Part shown: one piece after another, positions 5,503 through 10,136 of the stretch
Layout: each line of letters begins with the position of its first letter
Numbering within the stretch: the stretch's first letter is position 1
From: Psychrobacillus vulpis
GTDB lineage: Bacteria > Bacillota > Bacilli > Bacillales_A > Planococcaceae
Direction of reading: 5' to 3'
Assembly: GCF_006861825.1 (NCBI RefSeq)
Contig: NZ_VDGI01000016.1
Coordinates: 1 to 64,000, forward strand
Length of the DNA stretch: 64,000 bases
Translations under genes and position numbers: made by a program
The notes under the pieces: generated by a model
Databases searched by the model: none
Seen by the model: the letters and a program-made list of their open reading frames with translations, nothing else
What the model was told of the DNA's origin: nothing

Positions 5503-5958
5503 TTAAATTTCTTTTTCCATCAAAACATTTGTAGTCTGATAACCTAATTTCTCATATAATCCTCTTGCGACCTTGTTATGACCAAAAACATGAAGACCTA
5601 TTTTAATCATTCCAAGTTTTTTCCCAACACTCTCTATTTGCTTCATTGCTTCCTTAGAATACCCAAATCCTTGGTATTCTTTTAATATATTAATATCATA
5701 TATAAATCCTTCTTCTTCGGATTTTTGTGCTAGCCATATAACTCCAATTGCCTTGTCCTCTTTTAGAATAGTGTATAAGAAATTATTTTTAGTTTTCTCA
5801 CCTTTTGGCAGAAGCTTTGTATATTCATCTTTTGCTTTACTTATTGACTCTTCCTCATTCCAATTTCCCGACAAAACTTTTTCTTTCGCATATCCTTCAA
5901 TTGCTGAAGTAATATATTCTTGATACTCATATGAATTCATTAATATTAATTTAACCAT
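5503..5958 (-). CDS. GNAT-family N-acetyltransferase
   Basis: This is a single-domain acetyl-CoA-dependent acetyltransferase of 151 aa. The acetyl-CoA pyrophosphate loop is visible as YQGFGYSKEAM (consensus Q/RxxGxG/A). Beta-5/alpha-4 follows (IGLHVFGHNKVARGLYEKLGYQ), the classic 'N..A..LYEKLGF' ending. The acceptor is unknown. The start at 5958 is preferred because GGGGGAG precedes it by 9 bases; the longer ATG at 5982 lacks a site. It is a single gene with its own terminator, lying between palindromes at 5418 and 6011. Confidence 0.85.
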   Translation of the reverse strand: MVKLILMNSYEYQEYITSAIEGYAKEKVLSGNWNEEESISKAKDEYTKLLPKGEKTKNNFLYTILKEDKAIGVIWLAQKSEEEGFIYDINILKEYQGFGYSKEAMKQIESVGKKLGMIKIGLHVFGHNKVARGLYEKLGYQTTNVLMEKEI

Positions 5959-6010
5959 TACCTTATTCTCCCCCTTATCCATTAACTTCTACAAAGAATC
6001 ATTTAATTCC

Positions 6011-6516: not shown

Positions 6517-6987
6517 TTATTCATGGCTCTTCCTATACGCATTCCTCACCCGCTCGATCTGAGCGAGATGTCCACGGACATGATCAACGCGATATTCTAG
6601 CAATTCTTTAAAGGTGAAACGCTCGGCGTCAGGATACACTCCCACTCGCTCGCCTTGTTCGTTTGTTAGTTGTTCCAGCATCGGAAGCATACTAGCACGC
6701 AACAATTGGAATAGAAGCAAGTGATGCTCTCGGTCTAACCGATCATACCCCAACCCATTCGCCCAAGCGTCCTGGTCAAACGACATTAGAAGTGGCTCAT
6801 CCTCAGACAAAACTTTTTTTAGCCGTTGTGTCGACAATATCTCTGAATCTGCTACATGGATTAGAATCTGATGGATGCTCCATTTGTCCGGTGAGGGCTT
6901 GTATCGAAGCTCTTCCTCAGACAATCCTTCGATGGCTTCCCTTAGCATCCTGTATCCGCGACCATACTCTTTAATCAACTCTTCCAT
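6517..6987 (-). CDS. DinB/YfiT-family metal-dependent protein
   Basis: This 156-aa four-helix-bundle protein belongs to the DinB superfamily, whose members bind a metal through three histidines. Here His is present in ILIHVADSE (about residue 46), and H-x-x-x-H in DHVRGHLAQI (about 135-139) completes the triad. Members act as thiol-dependent S-transferases or have unknown roles; the substrate cannot be read from the sequence. The N-terminal KPSPDKWSIHQIL is typical. AGGAGGG lies before the ATG. It is slightly more GC-rich than the surrounding DNA and is a single gene. Confidence 0.85.
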   Translation of the reverse strand: MEELIKEYGRGYRMLREAIEGLSEEELRYKPSPDKWSIHQILIHVADSEILSTQRLKKVLSEDEPLLMSFDQDAWANGLGYDRLDREHHLLLFQLLRASMLPMLEQLTNEQGERVGVYPDAERFTFKELLEYRVDHVRGHLAQIERVRNAYRKSHE

Positions 6988-7610: not shown

Positions 7611-7643
7611 AAGAAAGAGGACCAAAAAATGGTCCTCTTTCTT
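7611..7643. terminator. bidirectional terminator
   Basis: AAGAAAGAGGACC (7611-7623) and GGTCCTCTTTCTT (7631-7643) are a perfect 13-bp stem with a 7-base loop, A/T-rich on both sides. It lies 27 bases after the stop of the minus-strand acetyltransferase 7670-8119. Confidence 0.85.
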
Positions 7644-7669: not shown

Positions 7670-8119
7670 TCACTCATTTAAATGTTTAATAACTGCCATT
7701 TCGTTACCAAACCTATCACCATTATCAATAAAACTTAAACTTGAATATAAGTTATGTGCTCCCAAATTTTCTGGATGATAACCTACAACAATTTTTTTCA
7801 CATTTGGTAATTTAGCCATCTCTGAAATCATTAAATTAGTTGCGGCTTTACCTATACCTTTGCCTTGGAATTCCTTGTCCACCATTATTCTATATACCCA
7901 ATGACCATCAAGTTCCTCTTGAACAGAATTGTACATTAAAAAGCCGACTACTTTTTCTTCAAAATATATAGCATATGGTTTTAGTGTAGGCTCGAACTTT
8001 GACTGAGCTATTGAAATAGCATTTGATTCAATGTATTCTGCTTGTTCTGATGATACCTCTAATTTACAGCATTCATACCAGTTTTCTAAATTTAATTCTA
8101 CAAGTTTAACATTACTCAC
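7670..8119 (-). CDS. BltD-like spermine/spermidine-type N-acetyltransferase
   Basis: This is a 149-aa GNAT enzyme. The order of motifs is close to Bacillus BltD: an early 'QAEYIESNAISIAQSK' segment, 'YAIYFEEKVVGFLMY', then 'YRIMVDKEFQGKGIGKAA' (acetyl-CoA loop QGKGIG) and 'NLGAHNLYSSLSF'. BltD acetylates spermine/spermidine; some relatives inactivate antibiotics, so the substrate is open. The start is GTG, placed 7-8 bases after AAGGGGAAA. That ribosome binding site can pair with TTTCCC upstream, and a separate 18-codon ORF with a very strong site precedes it (8162-8218). The layout is that of a gene induced by translational attenuation. Confidence 0.85.
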   Translation of the reverse strand: MSNVKLVELNLENWYECCKLEVSSEQAEYIESNAISIAQSKFEPTLKPYAIYFEEKVVGFLMYNSVQEELDGHWVYRIMVDKEFQGKGIGKAATNLMISEMAKLPNVKKIVVGYHPENLGAHNLYSSLSFIDNGDRFGNEMAVIKHLNE

Positions 8120-8123
8120 AAGA

Positions 8124-8233
8124 TTTCCCCTTTTCGTTATAGGGAAACGCTAACAACTTTATTAATTAGGCGTTATCCCCTTAAAATTATTATCGATATT
8201 ATTTCTTTTGTTTGTCATAATGAACGCCTCCTT
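8124..8233 (-). promoter_or_regulatory. putative translational attenuator upstream of the BltD-like gene
   Basis: Four mutually exclusive RNA segments can be read (minus strand). Segment 1 is AGGCGTT in the leader's ribosome binding site (8229-8223). Segment 2 is GGGGATAACGCCT at the leader's end (8180-8168). Segment 3 is AGCGTTTCCC (8151-8142). Segment 4 is GGGGAAA, the acetyltransferase ribosome binding site (8130-8124). Pairs 1:2 (7 bp, perfect), 2:3 (AACGC/GCGTT plus GGGA/TCCC with one bulge) and 3:4 (TTTCCC/GGGAAA) are all possible. A ribosome stalled on the leader would free segment 2 to take 3, exposing 4. This is inference from sequence only. Confidence 0.6.
8162..8218 (-). CDS. 18-aa leader peptide
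   Basis: GAAGGAGGCG, one of the strongest ribosome binding sites in the window, precedes an ATG by 6-8 bases. The ORF reads MTNKRNNIDNNFKGITPN and stops at TAA (8164-8162), 43 bases before the GTG of the acetyltransferase. It is far too short for an enzyme; its position and the base-pairing options around it suggest a regulatory leader of the cat/erm kind. Confidence 0.6.
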   Translation of the reverse strand: MTNKRNNIDNNFKGITPN

Positions 8234-8313
8234 CAACAAATCTTGTCAATTAATTCCATGAATGAATCTTTAGACTTTTTAATCATATCATACTACTAAA
8301 TTTTTTATCAGTC

Positions 8314-9774
8314 CTAAAGTTTTTTCGTCAATGGGAAAAAAACACAATCTTTAATAGTATCACTATCTGTTAGAACCATTAACAAACGTTCGATTCCAAA
8401 TCCCCAACCTGATATTGGAGGCATTCCATATTCCATAGCAGTTAGATATTCTTCATCCATCTCCATTGCTTCCAAATCTCCATTACTCTTAAGGAAAGCT
8501 TGTTCCTCTAATCTTTTTCTTTGTTCAAGTGGGTCCACTAACTCTGAATAAGCATTTATGATTTCCGCTCCGTTAACTACTAATTGGAAACGATCTGTAA
8601 TGGTATGGTTAATATCATTGGCTCTAGCTAGTGGGGACAAGTCAATTGGGTGTTGTATTAAAAAAGTCGGTTTTATAATTTGAGGTCGGCATTTTTTCTT
8701 ATATAAAAGATCAATGAAATTACCTCTACCTAAAGATTCAATATCAGAATGTTCTAAATCAATGTTTTTTCTCTTAGTTTCTTGATATAAAGCTTCAAAG
8801 TCAGGAAAAAGATCTATATCAATCCCTGTATCTTTTAAAATTAAATCTCTGAATGATACAATGTCCCATTTTAATGAAAAATCAATCGTTTGACCTTGTA
8901 TAACAATTGAAGTTGTATTAAACGTTTTATCCAGAACGTACAGAACCATTTCGCGCATTAATTTCATAGTATCCTCATAGTTCCAATATGCAGCGTACCC
9001 TTCAACCATGGTAAACTCTTGAAGATGTTGAGGACTGATGCCTTCATTTCTAAAACACTTTGCAAATTCAAATACTTTTGTAAAACCACCTACAATTAAT
9101 CTCTTCAAATAGGTTTCTGGTGCAATTCGTAAATTTAGGTGAGCATCCAATGAATTATGATAGGTTTTAAAAGGTTTAGCGATTGCACCAGATGATGTAT
9201 GCTGTAAAACTGGAGTTTCCACTTCTAAGAAGTTTTGATCTTCAAAAAACCTCCTAATAGAACGAACCATTGTTGTTCTTGCTAACAAACGATTTTGAGT
9301 ATCTTTTGTCATTATTAAATCTAAATAACGCTGTCTATATCGCACTTCAATGTTACTTAACCCATGCCATTTCTCAGGAAGAGACCGTAATGCTTTTCCA
9401 AGAAACACATAACTCTCAATCCGTATTGTTTTCTCCTTAGTTTTGGTTGTGTACATCTGTCCTTCAACACCGATAAAATCTCCAATGTCCAGTAAATCAT
9501 GAAATTGATTAAAAGGGACTTCGCCAACTTCTTCCCTGTTCAACAGAAGTTGCAAGCTTCCTTGAATGTTTGATATGGTAATAAAACTAAATTTACTAAA
9601 TTTCCTAATGCCTATTATTCTTCCCGCTACGCGGATACCAGTAGTACCATCTTCAAGTAATGCAGCTTCATCAAGTTCATAATTTGTAGAATACCTTTCA
9701 GGATACGCTTGAATTCCTTGAGATTTTATGGCATCTAACTTTTCTATTCTTCGAGTTGTTTGTTCATTAACCAT
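8314..9774 (-). CDS. lysS: lysyl-tRNA synthetase, class II
   Basis: This 486-aa enzyme charges tRNA-Lys with lysine. An N-terminal OB-fold anticodon-binding domain (about residues 50-145, IRVAGRIIGIRKFSKFSF) is followed by the class II catalytic core: motif 1 (FLEVETPVLQ), motif 2 (FRNEGIS...EFTMVEGY) and motif 3 (GWGFGIERLLM). Length and motifs are complete. The start at 9774 follows GGAG by 8 bases; the GTG three codons earlier overlaps it. A T-box leader (9822-10136) replaces the constitutive control usual for the housekeeping lysS, so this may be a second, lysine-starvation-induced copy. It stands alone. Confidence 0.93.
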   Translation of the reverse strand: MVNEQTTRRIEKLDAIKSQGIQAYPERYSTNYELDEAALLEDGTTGIRVAGRIIGIRKFSKFSFITISNIQGSLQLLLNREEVGEVPFNQFHDLLDIGDFIGVEGQMYTTKTKEKTIRIESYVFLGKALRSLPEKWHGLSNIEVRYRQRYLDLIMTKDTQNRLLARTTMVRSIRRFFEDQNFLEVETPVLQHTSSGAIAKPFKTYHNSLDAHLNLRIAPETYLKRLIVGGFTKVFEFAKCFRNEGISPQHLQEFTMVEGYAAYWNYEDTMKLMREMVLYVLDKTFNTTSIVIQGQTIDFSLKWDIVSFRDLILKDTGIDIDLFPDFEALYQETKRKNIDLEHSDIESLGRGNFIDLLYKKKCRPQIIKPTFLIQHPIDLSPLARANDINHTITDRFQLVVNGAEIINAYSELVDPLEQRKRLEEQAFLKSNGDLEAMEMDEEYLTAMEYGMPPISGWGFGIERLLMVLTDSDTIKDCVFFPLTKKL

Positions 9775-9821
9775 TTTTTTCACTCCAGACTTTTTAATAG
9801 TTTATTACTTTTAGACAACAA

Positions 9822-10136
9822 AAAAACTCCCACCCCCAAGATTATTAATCTTGAGGACGAGAGTTATTAACTTCGTGGTACCACCCCAGTTTATTGATAT
9901 GTTGCCATATCAATCTCTTCAGGTACGGCAATTAAAATAACTGATTATACCCTATCTCTTTAACGGGAGAACCCGTCGCATTATCACTAAGAATACTATC
10001 TTAGATCCGTGCGAAGCTCCAAGTCTTTTTTCATTAAGATAATTATTGCTCCTTTCCACCTACTGGAGCTCTCTAGAAATAATTAATCAAAATTACTCTT
10101 CTCTTCATCGCTGTCTATTCCGTATTTAATAATTAA
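9822..10136 (-). promoter_or_regulatory. T-box riboswitch of lysS
   Basis: The conserved T-box core GGTGGTACCACG lies at about 9887-9876 (minus strand). The terminator follows: ACTCTCGTCC...TCTTGGGGGTGGGAG then seven T (about 9866-9823). The 5' part has GATGAAGAGAAGAGTA (K-turn type) and AGAGAGCTCC...GTAGGTGG (GA motif and distal stem). The A-run AAAAAAG near 10031-10025 can supply the AAA/AAG lysine specifier. Uncharged tRNA-Lys would bind and prevent termination. Confidence 0.9.

Follow-up and report, generated by a model that had tools for sequence, protein, structure and literature searches.

A probable translational attenuator related to the tet(L)/tet(K) type precedes a stand-alone GNAT acetyltransferase gene in Psychrobacillus vulpis

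The DNA analysed here, hereafter the window, is a stretch of 64,000 nucleotides from Psychrobacillus vulpis (contig NZ_VDGI01000016.1), and it carries on its minus strand, as read from its open reading frames (ORFs), an 18-codon leader followed by the gene of a GNAT acetyltransferase. The acetyltransferase gene (7670..8119, minus strand) starts with GTG at 8119 and encodes 149 amino acids, while the leader ORF (8162..8218, minus strand; ATG at 8218, TAA at 8164–8162) reads MTNKRNNIDNNFKGITPN and is preceded by the Shine–Dalgarno (SD) sequence GAAGGAGGCG (8225..8234, minus strand), whose core is near-invariant across 91 aligned leaders. These coordinates confirm the preliminary description, which had read an 18-codon ORF with a strong SD ahead of a GTG-started acetyltransferase; the distance from the leader stop to the GTG, given there as 43 bases, measures 42. 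Four RNA segments can be placed on the same strand: segment 1, AGGCGTT (8223..8229), is the pairing partner of segment 2 and pairs in 84.9% of the cells of an alignment of 54 leaders; segment 2, GGGGATAACGCCTAA (8166..8180), is made up of the final leader codons; segment 3, TTAGCGTTTCCCT (8141..8153), is the anti-SD strand and has segment 2 or segment 4 as its partner; and segment 4, GGGGAAAT (8123..8130), holds the acetyltransferase SD.

A −10-like hexamer, TATGAT (8282..8287, minus strand), read by aligning the region to relatives (TAGTATAATTAAAAAGTCT), is a possible promoter of the leader transcript's own, and such a hexamer lies 30–110 nt 5' of the leader ATG in 78 of the 89 leaders with enough sequence, a raw count taken without a shuffle baseline. 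On the other side, 3' of the GNAT gene, a terminator-like hairpin, AAGAAAGAGGACC..GGTCCTCTTTCTT (7611..7643, minus strand), was read by eye in the sequence and is unscored. The hexamer (8287–8282) and the hairpin (7643–7611) suggest a one-gene transcript. The lysS gene 5' of the leader ends at 8314; it encodes a class II lysyl-tRNA synthetase (LysRS; 8314–9783, minus strand; NCBIfam lysine--tRNA ligase, 560 bits) and has a T-box leader at 9850–10117 (minus strand; RF00230, 105.3 bits). Past the GNAT gene lies a 156-aa ORF (6517–6987, minus strand) that is DinB-family-like by eye, and further downstream a second GNAT protein is encoded (5503–5982, minus strand; PF00583, 56.4 bits). Neither the window leader (E up to 1) nor any of five further leader loci (E up to 0.5) is matched by an Rfam 15 model.

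The 149-aa protein is assigned to the GNAT superfamily by Pfam Acetyltransf_1 (PF00583), which scores 54.8 bits against a cut-off of 20.7, and its AlphaFold2 model (mean pLDDT 85.3) matches the GNAT fold. Its best sequence match is the spermine/spermidine acetyltransferase 2fl4 of E. faecalis (69 bits), the top Foldseek matches are SpeG and 9dsb, and identity to E. faecalis 2fl4/9dsb is 28%. The window enzyme thus has the GNAT fold in common with these polyamine acetyltransferases but stays below the cut-offs of curated families, none of the ten NCBIfam families listed being reached. For instance, the PaiA model gives 35.5 against 250 bits, the spermidine N1-acetyltransferase model PRK15130 gives 17.3 against 218, and the Sat4 model gives 18.9 bits against 380. 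The earlier label "BltD-type" holds only loosely: the sequence and fold matches are polyamine acetyltransferases, but no cut-off among those ten families is passed, and the likeness to BltD of B. subtilis is one of name only.

Relatives of the GNAT gene were collected from 43 loci of named genomes and from 69 places in 67 of 261 family genomes, the order-wide protein search having covered the same 261 genomes as the family search. The gene was found in 118 loci, and 11 duplicate upstream regions being set aside, the 107 distinct ones belong to 101 orthologues, which share about 60% identity or more and are partial in some cases, and to 6 paralogues (34–36% identity). A leader ORF with its SD stands in 91 of the 101 distinct orthologue upstream regions, which bears out the expectation that close relatives would share it, and before none of the six distant paralogues (34–36% identity); the mechanical leader calls at L016 and L035 were overruled by hand as false. 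Among the ten leaderless orthologues, L012 and L117 are truncated genes, L068 combines a deleted leader SD with an in-frame stop in the GNAT gene, L061 (Cytobacillus purgationiresistens) has the whole leader deleted, L046 keeps a degenerate remnant, and L035, L059, L076, L109 and L118 show no visible trace of a leader. Some losses (L068, L012, L117) coincide with gene decay. L061 (positions 1–300), in which promoter-like sequence leads directly into the gene SD, resembles a naturally occurring deletion of the leader.

On a tree of 101 proteins, drawn from few columns and with many open forks, leader presence and absence can be explained by 9 changes, where shuffled labels need 13.3 on average and 0 of 500 shuffles need as few; L115, whose shifted stop failed the leader parse, was labelled leaderless. 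The orthologue clade of this tree holds 86 rows with a leader and 8 without. The window GNAT groups with Sutcliffiella genes and not with its own genus (support 99/72, unstarred), and among loci L002–L119, whose flanks usually span 1.5–3 kb, only the window's own shows a LysRS neighbour; this placement and the unshared neighbour are as for a mobile gene. Genome G104 carries two copies of the GNAT gene with leaders (L095, L096), about 14 kb apart. Comparison across orthologues confirms the leader as real and widely conserved, a judgement made because of this conservation and not because of single-sequence folding: on its own, the window leader folds with no more than ordinary stability (z −0.76), 39 of 200 shuffles reaching an energy as low.

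Of the 90 leaders that could be parsed, 73 have an ORF of 18 codons, 10 one of 17 and the remaining seven one of 15–22, and the leader stop lies 35–53 nt before the gene start, taken as the position that corresponds to the GTG of the window gene. In the 72 distinct 18-codon leaders, where the leader frame is by definition free of stops, the other two frames are stopped in 64 and 70. Among single-base codon changes, 190 of 611 are synonymous in frame compared with 70 of 587 and 116 of 581 out of frame, as counted over 175 non-independent leader pairs, and changes at codon positions 1, 2 and 3 number 206, 372 and 414, a modest signal. The leader ORF is presumably translated. Peptide residues 1–4 (MTNK) and 13–18 (KGITPN) are best kept and residues 5–12 are variable, the commonest residue reaching only 33–54% at positions 5–9, with hydrophobic residues frequent at positions 6–9. 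Conservation of the peptide end need not concern the peptide, because the same stretch is RNA segment 2. The window leader has 6 Asn codons among its 18 residues; across the 72 leaders, Asn occupies residue 3 in 62, residue 18 in 49 and residue 10 in 36.

The same kind of leader was also sought before other genes. Covariance model R1 was built from 54 leaders of the 149-aa GNAT family, the window being one training row, and in the window's own genome the window leader is its only match at E ≤ 0.01 (1.4e-19). At this threshold R1 has matches in 82 of the 261 family genomes and in 27 of 398 genomes across the class. For 38 R1 places away from the 149-aa GNAT, the downstream gene was read by eye unless scanned: 25 are isochorismatase-type hydrolases (L213, scanned, PF00857 105.5 bits), two are GNATs of 148 aa, three GNATs of 307 aa and two GNATs of 198 aa (one of them truncated in the reading), one is a Tet-family pump (460 bits, under the family cut-off of 650), three are relics or cut copies, and two are false, being ordinary gene starts. 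The class-wide search also reached a phosphotransferase of the APH fold (L160; PF01636, 139.4 bits) and, at L166 and L171, two tet(L) genes, the second of which scores 983.6 bits against a cut-off of 925. R1 matches of E 0.0009–0.01 include ordinary gene starts (L167, L169, L170, L173, L209 and L210) and were counted only with a readable leader and a fitting downstream gene; left out of the reading were the matches of E 0.0026–0.01 at G252, G016, G087, G048:C20, G044, G130 and G092:C350, and the two weakest R2 matches (G074:C1:3276434 and G549). A Stenotrophomonas plasmid record (L219; 2878–2996) holds a Bacillales-type GNAT with a leader at 94 bits under R1 and is probably a mis-assigned record.

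Covariance model R2 was built from 13 leaders that precede the 148-, 307- and 198-aa GNATs and contains no leader of a 149-aa GNAT or Tet gene; its training leaders were found via R1, so that they form a chain of relatedness and not an independent draw. In the window's own genome, the window leader is again the only match at E ≤ 0.005 (E 3.5e-10, 69.8 bits), and the second GNAT gene (5503–5982) has no R2 match of leader strength in front, the best other match in the window being 15.5 bits. Run on 396 genomes, R2 recovers tet(L) leaders with E values of 1.3e-8 and 2.2e-8; on plasmids it gives 56.5 and 58.6 bits for tet(L) and 37.1 bits for tet(K) of pNS1. Overall, tet(L) leaders score 56.5–61.2 bits with R2 and 28–33.5 bits with R1, and R1 does not reach tet(K) (10.6 bits). 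Further R2 matches lie before Tet-family pumps (seven of ten scanned proteins), one of which passes the Tet(K) cut-off at 1029.6 bits and six of which, at 466–569 bits, fall below the 650 family cut-off. Others lie before GNATs of about 290 aa (six loci), before kinase-like proteins at three loci (the single protein scanned scores 28.6 bits with PF00069, below the cut-off of 31.7) and before one DinB-family protein (L242; PF05163, 91 bits), whose leader is unparsable. As judged by these matches, similar leaders precede hydrolases, four other GNAT kinds and a phosphotransferase and, only perhaps, kinase-like proteins and a DinB protein. In the 198-aa GNAT leaders (L207, L208 and L164) the parsed ORF stops before segment 2, and the position of the stop relative to the switch differs between sub-types. 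In the tet(L) leader of an Enterococcus hirae plasmid (L217; 1387–1508), an early stop follows MKCN and the rest of the RNA is kept.

The preliminary description had proposed four segments with pairings 1:2, 2:3 and 3:4, and all three exist, the window duplex energies being −11.3, −15.4 and −10.8 kcal/mol, respectively. Over 90 leaders the mean energies are −15.4 kcal/mol for 2:3, −11.1 for 3:4 and −8.8 for 1:2, compared with −7.6, −6.2 and −5.7 kcal/mol for letter-shuffled partners, so the proposed attenuator with exclusive 2:3 and 3:4 stems over the gene SD is upheld by pairing far above shuffled. The control pairs 2:4 (−3.9 against −4.1) and 1:4 (−2.7 against −4.0) are no stronger than shuffled, and the control pair 1:3 is stronger (−10.3 against −7.8). 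Swapping partners between species weakens 2:3, with 2 of 5000 permutations as good; cognate preference is absent for 3:4 (4792 of 5000 as good) and hardly present for 1:2 (356 of 5000). Covariation was tested on a MAFFT alignment of 54 leaders with 500 shuffles. In this test 2:3 is paired in 85.8% of cells against 84.4% when shuffled (3 of 500), and its counts of compensated pairs, with two-sided change, are within chance (41–53 of 500), slid versions of the helix having as many. For 3:4 (81.4% of cells paired, 474 of 500 shuffles as high) and for 1:2 (84.9%, 500 of 500 shuffles at least as high) covariation is absent in the same 54 leaders. By eye, CUAA:UUAG becomes CGAA:UUCG in L108 and its kin, and L048, L054 and L055 re-pair in new registers. 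Covariation, the check that the preliminary description had named for the stems, is thus modest for 2:3 and absent for 1:2 and 3:4.

A swap test across gene families used 64 dereplicated leaders of eight gene types (from 133 cut). It left out the 198-aa GNAT leaders, L249 and the tet(K) leader L216, whose segments misfit the cutting rule, and L189, L229, L166 and L242 were unparsable in the segment cutting. Cognate preference of 2:3 is found here as well (37 of 5000, and 72 of 5000 without the 149-aa GNAT family), and it lies entirely between families; within families a swap costs nothing (−14.69 both in the dereplicated set). For 3:4, cognate preference appears in the 26 leaders outside the 149-aa GNAT family (4 of 5000) but not overall (415 of 5000). 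In the hydrolase leaders the GGCGTT of segment 1 is missing and 1:2 is weak (−5.2 kcal/mol). For a conserved hairpin 5' of the leader, the mean energy is −5.2 kcal/mol where shuffles give −3.8, and the pattern occurs in 32 of 89 leaders, a signal too weak to claim. Overall, the pairing is solid, the covariation is modest, and segment 1 is the least secure part.

The effect of a translating ribosome was modelled in 90 leaders by crude masking, in which a footprint reaching from 14 nt behind the first base of the P-site codon to 16 nt beyond it was held unpaired. In the free RNA of the window, the gene SD is 18% unpaired and P(3:4) is 0.80, and over the 90 leaders the unpaired fraction has a mean of 0.24 and a median of 0.07. 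With the ribosome on codons 1–8 the mean is 0.26–0.36 (medians 0.09–0.32, only 0.09–0.13 for codons 4–7), and with the ribosome on codons 9–19 it is 0.05–0.11, with medians of 0.00. A drop of more than 0.1 occurs in 49% of leaders, or in 53 or 51 of the 90 when codons 1, 4 and 8 are compared with codons 10, 12, 16 and 18. When 65 instead of 25 nt 5' of the leader are included, the means are 0.25–0.32 (codons 1, 4 and 8) and 0.06–0.08 (codons 10–18), with a drop of more than 0.1 in 51 of 90 leaders and a rise in 3. Shuffling the RNA middle gives about 0.46–0.54 unpaired and no step (180 shuffles). The 15 hydrolase leaders have the same step (0.30–0.46 against 0.04–0.19), and in the 11 Tet-family leaders it is weaker and comes one codon earlier. 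In the window sequence with 65 nt upstream, the gene SD is 0.26, 0.11 and 0.08 unpaired at codons 1, 4 and 8, being rather closed at codons 4–10 (0.01–0.11) and open at codons 12 and 16 (0.79 and 0.84), with a similar trend in a separate folding. This departure is probably due to a competing hairpin. The predicted position switch at codon 8/9 is therefore a family average, to which the window sequence is an exception that is counted against it, and the earlier proposal that a stalled ribosome frees the SD through 2:3 agrees with the family average in masked folding but not with the window sequence itself. In this modelling the family average would be the better guide than the window sequence alone.

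To our knowledge, the tet(L)/tet(K) leaders are the only described members of the proposed attenuator family. The known leaders compared were those of tet(L) of plasmid pKKS627 and of tet(K) of pNS1, MKCLFKNLGNLYEVKE. A leader SD and an ORF of 16–20 codons are common to tet(L)/tet(K) and to the window leader, and tet(L)/tet(K) likewise have a G-rich segment 2 opposite a C-rich segment 3, with segment 3 and the gene SD as the alternative pair. Membership is indicated by the fact that one model trained on neither, R2, recovers both the window leader and tet(L), and the alternative pairing among segment 2, segment 3 and the gene SD is evident in pairing strength, with covariation only modest. However, the tet(L) leaders have an extra GGG..CCC element and then TATAAACT, and their stop lies further 3' of segment 2, whereas the window leader stops inside segment 2 and lacks the GGG..CCC element. 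No such element with TATAAACT around segment 2 was seen by eye in the aligned leaders of the 149-aa GNATs, and because it was not seen the window leader is classed, on its sequence, as a related variant and not as a tet(L) leader proper.

The preliminary description had called the leader "cat/erm-like". With ErmCL the window leader presumably shares a loose "IFxI" likeness. The principle is common, in that a stalled leader ribosome frees a hidden SD, but the leader sequence does not match: of the one cat region (pC194) and the one ermC region (pE194) scored, neither gives a match with R1 or R2, the best score over the ermC leader being 5.5 bits, while tet(L)/tet(K) are recovered. It has been reported that in erm and cat attenuators a stalled leader ribosome uncovers the SD, and the attenuators named in the passages considered are bmrCD, cat, cmlA, erm, mef/mel, tetM, tetQ and vmlR, with neither tet(L) nor the 149-aa GNAT among them (PMC5418344). 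The E. coli topAI-yjhQP uORF toiL is reported to sense several classes of ribosome drug by stalling at different codons (PMC12121999). The likeness to toiL is the sensing of ribosome drugs by a uORF; the differences are another phylum, one repressive hairpin with Rho termination, and toxin–antitoxin genes downstream. An RNA survey of 50 genomes gave eight uORF candidates, including ones that concern ilvB and fthC (PMC11109978). Among the matches listed from the open-licence literature, none reports such a leader ahead of a GNAT or hydrolase gene.

Taken together, the leader is probably an attenuator of translation, a relative of the tet(L)/tet(K) ones, that is placed before a stand-alone GNAT gene and responds to an antibiotic. 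In undisturbed cells, ribosomes would read the 18-codon leader to its end, and a ribosome past about codon 8 would cover segment 2, so that segment 3 pairs with segment 4 and the acetyltransferase SD is hidden (OFF). A ribosome-targeting drug would arrest a ribosome at the leader start or within its first eight codons and leave segment 2 free to capture segment 3, whereupon the gene SD would open (ON). The induced acetyltransferase would then probably modify the translation inhibitor, plausibly an amine-rich one. We infer the drug-induced stalling on the leader, the identity of the drug and the substrate of the enzyme, and the drug is taken as the cause of the ribosome hold because of the leader's relatives.

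Translational reinitiation is a rather unlikely alternative, in which ribosomes finishing the leader slide or re-bind 42 nt on and start the acetyltransferase, the drug altering the frequency of such events. Among known leaders it is those of tet(L)/tet(K) that the models recover, and the tet(L) work of Stasinopoulos and colleagues in 1998 reportedly favoured reinitiation over stalling; in addition, the distance from leader stop to gene is narrow (35–53 nt over 90 leaders), and a window ribosome at codons 12–16 leaves the gene SD rather open. However, a ribosome on the last leader codons on average seals the gene SD (0.05–0.11), and the 198-aa GNAT leaders stop before segment 2, so a fixed geometry between stop and SD is not common to all. 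The RNA could also act alone, as a thermometer or riboswitch to which the ORF is incidental. That the segments and the leader SD show the strongest conservation and that the codon-position signal (206, 372, 414) is modest would fit such a device, which is nevertheless highly improbable given that most orthologues retain the leader SD, the ATG and the frame and that 83 of the 90 parsed ORFs have 17 or 18 codons.

Two further alternatives give the peptide or its codons a sensing role. The nascent leader might be an arrest peptide for a small molecule such as a polyamine, a suggestion favoured by the polyamine acetyltransferases among the fold and sequence neighbours of the enzyme and by the frequent hydrophobic residues at positions 6–9; it is very unlikely, since the peptide middle varies (33–54% at positions 5–9) and leaders of this type are likewise found in front of tetracycline pumps and hydrolases. 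The earlier idea of a polyamine as inducer is unsupported on the same grounds, the peptide middle being variable and the leader type being found before functionally unrelated genes. Similarly, the six Asn codons of the window leader would suit amino-acid attenuation, with an Asn-rich leader sensing charged tRNA-Asn or another amino acid, but Asn richness is unconserved, only residue 3 being Asn in most leaders (62 of 72), and the downstream enzymes are outside amino-acid biosynthesis, which makes this reading extremely improbable.

Regarding the substrate behind the preferred attenuator reading, two of the fold types preceded by the leader have known counterparts among resistance enzymes. SatA is presumably a GNAT. 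Acetyltransferases are known to act on amine-rich translation inhibitors: it has been reported that streptothricin is acetylated by SatA and opened by the isochorismatase-like hydrolase SttH (PMC11702664), and likewise that paenilamicin is acetylated by PamZ (PMC11581978). GNAT and isochorismatase-type hydrolase are thus fold types with validated streptothricin-inactivating members, an analogy that is suggestive and no more, and streptothricin as a substrate of the window GNAT is only a lead.

It is put forward tentatively, as a possibility somewhat short of an even chance, that a single attenuator family has been acquired in Bacilli by no fewer than four unrelated families of proteins (Tet pumps, five GNAT kinds, isochorismatase-type hydrolases and a phosphotransferase of the APH fold), with kinase-like and DinB proteins as possible further cases. 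The attenuator would thereby flag a set of genes, so far unrecognised, that confer resistance to the ribosome inhibitors of soil bacteria, and the substrate inactivated by the window GNAT and the hydrolase may be a translation inhibitor rich in amines and similar to streptothricin, paenilamicin or edeine. The leader would then be a functional label, sensible only for genes whose product is needed under ribosome inhibition, and would turn a "GNAT family protein" and a "cysteine hydrolase" into testable candidates for resistance to ribosome-targeting natural products. The R1 and R2 covariance models would be a route to more such genes, and the tet(L)/tet(K) leaders would gain a large natural set of relatives for comparison.
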